From positions 1-34,740 of the forward strand of contig JAJXWR010000022.1 in assembly GCA_021781515.1 (NCBI GenBank): DNA of 34,740 nucleotides. The letters are read 5' to 3'. Positions within the stretch are counted from its first letter, which is position 1, and each line of letters begins with the position of its first letter. The notes beneath the pieces are model-generated. The model was given only the letters and a program-made list of their open reading frames with translations, searched no databases and was not told the DNA's origin. Shown here one piece after another: positions 30,443 through 31,797 of this stretch. The DNA is from Pseudomonadota bacterium. GTDB taxonomy: Bacteria > Pseudomonadota > Gammaproteobacteria > Pseudomonadales > Moraxellaceae. A program made the position numbers and the translations under genes.

Positions 30443-30459
30443 CGCACAATAAGCGTGCA
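30443..30459 (+). promoter_or_regulatory. NtrC-like enhancer site before the porin-glnK-amtB cluster
   Basis: CGCAC-N7-GTGCA, 9 of 10 half-site bases of the NtrC consensus. The centre (30451) is about 108 bp upstream of the predicted start (near 30559), a classic enhancer distance. An overlapping CACGC-N7-GCGTG repeat is also present. Confidence 0.7.
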
Positions 30460-30513
30460 ATTTATCGGTGGAGTGGAGCGGAACTATTGCGTCATAAGTA
30501 ATAATTATATAAA

Positions 30514-30526
30514 AATCAACAGGTAA
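30514..30526 (+). promoter_or_regulatory. IHF-like site
   Basis: AATCAACAGGTAA matches the IHF consensus WATCAA-N4-TTR at all but one fixed position, and an A/T-rich tract lies just upstream. It sits between the NtrC-like site and the sigma54 element, where a bend would bring enhancer and polymerase together. Confidence 0.45.
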
Positions 30527-30532
30527 ATGATC

Positions 30533-30548
30533 TGGCATGTTCTGTGCT
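30533..30548 (+). promoter_or_regulatory. Sigma54 -24/-12 promoter of the porin-glnK-amtB cluster
   Basis: TGGCAT, GTTCT, GTGCT. The GG (30534-30535) and GC (30546-30547) are spaced by 10 bp as required for sigma54. The leader to the porin ATG is about 38 nt. Confidence 0.7.
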
Positions 30549-30597
30549 ATTTACACTGTGTTACATCATGAATCACAATTAAAGAGGAATATCGACA

Positions 30598-31797
30598 ATG
30601 ATGAAGAAGCTAAGCATGACTGTGGTTTCCGCCATTGCGGGGCTTTCTGCGGGGGCCTGGGCGGATACCGCTCCAGCGGGACCGGGACTGGACAAAGTAT
30701 TGGCCGCATCAGGCATCACTGAACAGGGCTATATAGAGGCGGCCTATAATTATTACAGCTACAGCGCTCCAGGTGGTACCAACCTGGCACCCACCGGCAT
30801 GAATTATTTTGATAACCGGGCCAATTCCTTCGATCTCAAGCAGGCGTTTTTACAGTTGGCCAAACAGCCTGCCGAAGGCGTGGGGGGGCTGGTCAACATC
30901 ACCACGGGCAGTGATGCCGACTGGATTAAATCAGCGCCGTACAGTCAGAGGGCAGCGAGCAATTCTTTTGATCTGACCCAGGCCTTCTTGCAGTATGCAC
31001 ATGGGATTTACACGGCATCGGCCGGCAAGTTCGTCACGATGGCAGGTGCTGAAGTTATCAATGACTTATCAAACACTAACATTTCGCATTCTATTGCCTT
31101 CCTTAACGCCATTCCGTTTACCCATACCGGGGCTCGTTTTACCATTGCTCCGAATTCCACCTATTCCATCATGTTGGGTGAAGTGAACGGCTGGGATCAG
31201 CAGCAGGCGTATTCGGCTCAGAAAACGACCGAATGGTGTCTGCTCTTTAATCCAACGGCCATGGTGAGCTGGAGTTTGCAGGGGTATTACGGGGATGCGA
31301 CTCCCTCAGCCTATACGCCGACGGTGGCAAATCTGGTTGCGGCACCTGCCACTGCCAATGGCAAGCTGATTAATAACAAAACGGTGTCTGGTATTCTGGC
31401 CACCCGAAATCTGGTGGATACGGTGTTGACGGTTAAACCGACTGCAGCACTCAGCCTGATCCTCAATGCCGATTATGCCAAACAGGATAGGGCATTTACC
31501 GATAATACGGCGGCGGTATGGACGGCCGTGGATGTGTATGTCAATTACCAGTTTAATGATCAGTGGCGGACGTCGTTGCGTCTTGAAAATTTTGACGACA
31601 AGGAGGGTTATAAACTGGGCTACGGGGTAGGAAATACCAAATCATCAACATTGACGGTGGGTTATGCCCCTATACCTGCTTTTGAAGTACGCGCAGAAGT
31701 ACGTGAAGACAAGGCACCGCAGGCAGTGATCCCGAAAGGGAGTGGAGTTACCGATAGCGTCGGCTATGCGGCCGTTGAAGGGATTTATAAATTCTGA
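30598..31797 (+). CDS. BBP2/OmpL-like outer-membrane porin
   Basis: A 399-residue protein of the putative beta-barrel porin-2 type. The signal peptide ends after AWA (about residue 22). Residues such as [15 protein letters not shown] and the later [12 protein letters not shown] repeat the strand pattern of that family, and the protein ends in YKF with terminal Phe. It is the first gene behind a sigma54/NtrC-type promoter and is followed 38 bp later by glnK, so it is likely induced by nitrogen limitation and may let ammonium or a small nitrogen compound cross the outer membrane. AGAGGA precedes the ATG; a second ATG follows directly. Substrate not proven. Confidence 0.85.

Follow-up and report, generated by a model that had tools for sequence, protein, structure and literature searches.

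We analyzed a 34,740-nucleotide stretch of DNA from a Moraxellaceae bacterium of the phylum Pseudomonadota (hereafter the window; forward strand of contig JAJXWR010000022.1, assembly GCA_021781515.1), in which a gene for an outer-membrane porin of the BBP2 family is followed by glnK, encoding a PII protein, and amtB. The best explanation of this locus, which we consider probable as a whole, is a nitrogen-regulated porin–glnK–amtB operon whose porin most likely serves the entry of ammonium. This explanation is carried by a conserved NtrC/sigma54-type promoter that accompanies BBP2 porins linked to glnK, and by a second, unrelated family of putative porins that occupies the same place in other genomes.

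Results

The three genes lie in series on the forward strand, separated by gaps of 38 and 53 bases (Table 1). Profile matches and coordinates confirmed the gene order given in a preliminary description of this DNA, and the porin matched the BBP2 profile (PF07642) with 171.2 bits (cut-off 26.2) over profile positions 2–338 of 339.

Table 1. Coordinates of the porin–glnK–amtB locus, its predicted regulatory elements and other features of the window
Feature	Position	Strand	Remarks
NtrC-type site CGCACAATAAGCGTGCA, CGCAC-N7-GTGCA	30443–30459	+	9/10 defined bases
Weak NtrC-like match overlapping the preceding site	30456–30472	+	2 mismatches; doubtful
Integration host factor (IHF)-like match AATCAACAGGTAA	30514–30526	+	1 mismatch; not beyond chance
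Sigma54 −24/−12 element TGGCATGTTCTGTGCT, GG-N10-GC	30533–30548	+	2 mismatches, GG and GC intact
BBP2-family outer-membrane porin	30598–31797	+	399 aa; Pfam BBP2, signal-like N-terminus, predicted 16-stranded barrel, C-terminal F
GC-rich hairpin GGCGGC-GCC-GCCGCC, then TTTT, in the porin–glnK gap	31803–31821	+	z −1.2, not significant for this copy alone
glnK (PII)	31836–32174	+	NCBIfam NF007946 above cut-off
amtB	32228–33775	+	GTG start; TIGR00836 419 bits, above cut-off
N-terminal part of AmtB	32228–32480		signal-like peptide, then long Ala/Thr/Pro-rich extension
Strong intrinsic terminator 3' of amtB, closing the predicted operon	33798–33825	+	z −2.7
Promoter region of glnA (internal positive control)	24569–24704	+	NtrC-like sites at 24569 and 24600 (31 bp apart), sigma54 element 24689–24704
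glnA coding region	about 24805–26211
ptsP (nitrogen-type phosphotransferase system enzyme I)	27704–29998		just upstream of the operon
Weak UbiK-like gene	30041–30319	−	69.7 bits, below cut-off 100
Apparently secreted protein	15584–16741		385 residues; no Pfam or NCBIfam match

Upstream of the porin, we located the NtrC site and the GG-N10-GC sigma54 element that the preliminary description had proposed, and the spacing among the NtrC, IHF-like and sigma54 elements and the porin start codon was of the usual kind. At two or fewer mismatches, however, the whole window contained 23 NtrC matches against 24.8 expected from shuffles and 24 sigma54 matches against 27.8, and IHF matches with at most one mismatch numbered 40. 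Motif counts from the window alone were therefore rejected as evidence. The near-consensus IHF site, also claimed earlier, is present as a one-mismatch match but is not established as an element, because such matches are common everywhere and only about one relative in two has a match in this place.

It is conservation that makes the predicted promoter convincing. A sigma54 element (two or fewer mismatches, GG and GC intact) preceded all 11 glnK-linked BBP2 porins for which upstream sequence was available, counting that of the window (1.6% in shuffled upstream regions), and an NtrC site with at most one mismatch was found in 8 of these 11 (0.5% in shuffles). The mean column identity of the aligned promoters was 51%, yet TGGCA and TGCT were invariant. 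Comparison with other genomes, which the preliminary description had named as a check, recovered both the porin–glnK–amtB order and the sigma54 element. In addition, the 2.79 Mb genome contains 17 instances of the combined pattern (NtrC core, 60–90 bp, GG-N10-GC), compared with 4 for a reversed-pattern control, and three of the 17 stand before glnA, ntrB(-ntrC) and the window porin. The exact 16-mer of the porin element, TGGCATGTTCTGTGCT, also precedes fliE–fliF in the same genome (G000:C85:1241-1256); flagellar operons of this kind are commonly sigma54-dependent. Chance-level counts of the single motifs would suit an account in which the promoter matches are fortuitous, glnK–amtB has an undetected promoter of its own and the porin is an ordinary neighbour, but the conservation in all 11 loci, the invariant blocks, the 16-mer shared with fliE–fliF and the lack of a sigma54 element before glnK (see below) make that account highly improbable.

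We compared BBP2 porins with and without a glnK neighbour. A sample of 397 Pseudomonadota genomes together with the nearest relatives yielded 42 BBP2 loci with sequence, of which 17 led directly into glnK, 2 were divergent from it and 23 were unlinked; the linked loci come both from the family to which the window belongs and from a second family (f81), placed in a different class. A sigma54 element lay upstream of 16 of the 17 linked porins but of none of the 23 unlinked ones (Fisher's p = 2.7e-10, with loci that are not independent owing to kinship), and the search likewise found none upstream of the second, unlinked BBP2 copies carried by relatives of the window (L012, L013, L014 and L024). 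The promoter therefore follows the link to glnK, not the porin family. In the two divergent loci (L142 and L151), the same partners stand in another arrangement, and the region before the porin gave no sigma54 match.

These comparisons also bear on whether the porin has a general effect on the outer membrane of nitrogen-starved cells, through porin exchange or envelope adaptation, with no special link to nitrogen uptake. Such a role would agree with a Burkholderia cenocepacia NtrC mutant in which several porins are altered (PMC5491218) and with the fact that Pfam gives no substrate for BBP2. We nevertheless regard it as improbable, given the conserved co-operonic place with glnK–amtB and the unlinked BBP2 copies that lack a sigma54 promoter.

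In first-copy BBP2 operons, the 450 bp preceding porin-linked glnK and the 300 bp preceding amtB contained no sigma54 element with two or fewer mismatches, nor was there a match in any porin–glnK gap of the 11 BBP2-linked operons or of 21 operons in which a porin of another family, TorF, precedes glnK–amtB. Such an element lay within 300 bp of glnK in 12 of 41 loci without an adjoining porin versus 1 of 32 with one, and hence tends to precede whichever gene comes first. The genome encodes RpoN (229.6 bits), NtrC (744.9 bits) and NtrB (355 bits), each above cut-off. Because glnK has no separate sigma54 promoter and a strong terminator follows amtB, a single nitrogen-regulated operon is the best reading, and the earlier proposal of NtrC/sigma54 control over porin, glnK and amtB together is strongly supported by these sequence comparisons.

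Two other arrangements were observed. In genus g9 (L055, L056 and L059), a terminator-like hairpin stands behind TorF, the gap to glnK is longer, and glnK is preceded by a sigma54-like TGGCACGTTTTTTGAA without the −12 GC; not every porin–glnK pair therefore need be one operon, and the two genes may be uncoupled in this genus. The second glnK–amtB pair of the window's genome (L044, G000:C91:1500-7500) has no adjoining porin and no sigma54 match; its glnK is immediately preceded by several half sites of the TGCACCAAAA type, which might reflect a different mode of nitrogen control. A link to nitrogen fixation was unsupported, as no nifH above cut-off was found in this genome.

Many Burkholderiales have, between the promoter and glnK, a gene for a putative porin of about 240 residues from the TorF/Gcw_chp family (PF09694, TIGR02001), taken to be an outer-membrane barrel on account of the name of the family and of the signal-like N-termini and the C-terminal residues of its members. 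A sigma54 element lies upstream in 16 of the 21 TorF–glnK–amtB operons. Within a single genus (g13), the same place holds BBP2 in genome G014 and TorF in genome G027: the flanks align at the nucleotide level (76% over 1.8 kb of the upstream gene region, 84% over 135 bases of promoter and leader, and 87% in the glnK region), the sigma54 core is identical (TGGCATGGCTTCTGC in both), and the porin genes are not alignable. In a BLASTP comparison, the window porin showed no similarity to the TorF protein of G027. The place of the porin is a slot that holds BBP2, the unrelated TorF/Gcw_chp, or nothing. On a poorly resolved GlnK tree (112 columns), these three states required 14 changes, compared with 31 in shuffles.

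The occurrence of two unrelated pore families in one slot suggests, without proving, that the pore passes scarce ammonium through the outer membrane. Net charges of the porins (0 to −14 for BBP2 and −7 to −33 for TorF) are too coarse a measure for selectivity. A broader proposal would be that BBP2 and TorF/Gcw_chp are dedicated, interchangeable ammonium porins, recruited independently into the NtrC-controlled slot because outer-membrane permeability limits uptake at very low ammonium; we offer it tentatively, as a possibility that may well prove wrong.

An AlphaFold2 model of the window porin, built with an eight-sequence alignment, had 16 strands at moderate confidence (mean predicted local distance difference test [pLDDT] 67, predicted template modelling score 0.68). 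The top Foldseek match in the PDB was Campylobacter MOMP, and the best matches were mostly 16-stranded porins (PorB, chitoporin, DcaP, OprP, OmpF and Omp32); no relative turned up when PDB sequences were searched with a profile. The model supports a barrel resembling general porins. Because broad 16-stranded porins have the fold predicted here, the model would also accommodate an NtrC-controlled operon whose porin serves other nitrogen compounds (amino acids, amines, urea or small peptides), with the promoter shared since all of these are wanted in nitrogen starvation. The NtrC-affected porin BCAL3473 of B. cenocepacia is of this kind, being needed for the import of amines and arginine, whereas its loss leaves ammonium use unaffected (PMC10117139). 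The porin considered here, however, keeps company with glnK–amtB and not with transporters for amines, urea or amino acids; this link recurs in distant families and involves two porin families unrelated to each other, so that we judge service to other nitrogen compounds unlikely, though it deserves serious consideration.

A GC-rich hairpin like that of the window occupies the porin–glnK gap of many BBP2 and TorF operons, with z of −3 to −5 in several relatives; the shortest gaps lack it. Loci L032 and L035 share one stem, in which some pairs differ (GGTGGCC-TTCG-GGTCACC, partly G-U, versus GGCGACC-TTCG-GGTCGCC). The hairpin likely allows more porin than GlnK–AmtB to be made, as we infer, through protection of a 3' end or partial termination.

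Among neighbouring features, ptsP also precedes the operon in L002, L032 and L041, and in the window ptsP, the nearby glnA and the operon form a local nitrogen-related cluster. The channel domain of AmtB begins near residue 85, after an Ala/Thr/Pro-rich extension that also occurs in many relatives with and without an adjoining porin. We rejected this extension as a mark of porin-linked copies because it is present in some AmtB proteins with no adjoining porin and missing from several classic AmtB proteins that are porin-linked.

Discussion

We propose that, when nitrogen is limiting, phosphorylated NtrC would bind near its upstream site and activate RNA polymerase–sigma54 at the −24/−12 element, giving a transcript from about position 30559 to the terminator behind amtB. 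The 16-stranded porin would make the outer membrane more permeable to a nitrogen source in short supply, most likely ammonium, and periplasmic supply through it would thereby keep pace with AmtB, which GlnK would gate once nitrogen returns; partial protection or termination at the hairpin may set porin output above that of GlnK–AmtB. A full ammonium-scavenging route that includes its outer-membrane channel is thus plausible, with ammonium as the best inference for the porin's substrate.

Several points weigh against this proposal. Ammonium passes ordinary porins, and AmtB of Escherichia coli works without a dedicated porin. Many relatives have glnK–amtB without an adjoining porin, and ammonium use was indifferent to the loss of BCAL3473, as described above. 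The window carries one good NtrC site, a reduced form where a tandem pair is usual (sites 32–33 bp apart are frequent in relatives), and the barrel model, at its moderate pLDDT, is uninformative on selectivity.

Ammonium uptake has been studied almost wholly at the inner membrane. If the proposal is correct, a recurrent, exchangeable porin under the GlnK–AmtB nitrogen switch would make the outer membrane a regulated step, and two porin families without an assigned substrate, perhaps also the protein NlmA discussed below, would gain a testable function. The species pair of genus g13, with different porins behind the same promoter, offers a clean comparison.

Comparison with known systems

The window operon resembles nlmA–glnK–amtB of Herbaspirillum seropedicae, which is NtrC-dependent and about 21-fold induced under nitrogen limitation (PMC3023670): in both, the gene for a membrane or membrane-associated protein comes first, co-directional with and adjoining glnK–amtB, behind one upstream nitrogen promoter. 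The first gene encodes a BBP2 porin in the window and NlmA in Herbaspirillum, and the likeness considered here is one of gene order. A BBP2-domain porin is also encoded by KSMBR1_3177 of Kuenenia stuttgartiensis, which is strongly induced by ammonium limitation and for which the authors propose ammonium influx; unlike the window gene, it belongs to a different phylum and is not described as part of a glnK–amtB operon (PMC7438415). Given the Herbaspirillum operon and the Kuenenia induction, neither this operon type nor the idea of BBP2 in ammonium entry is new; the preliminary description was fair in calling such a role rarely assigned to the family, but the role itself had been proposed before. 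The present analysis adds a test of promoter conservation, shows how linked BBP2 copies differ from unlinked ones, and documents that two unrelated families replace each other in a single slot under predicted nitrogen control.

The TorF operons of Burkholderiales share with the window the gene order, the upstream sigma54 element and frequently a similar hairpin ahead of glnK, and differ in their shorter putative porin from an unrelated family. The glnK–amtB genes of E. coli and Paraburkholderia phymatum, the latter with a predicted RpoN box directly before the PII gene (PMC5979394), are under sigma54 control, but in the window a porin gene stands between promoter and glnK, where these two have none.
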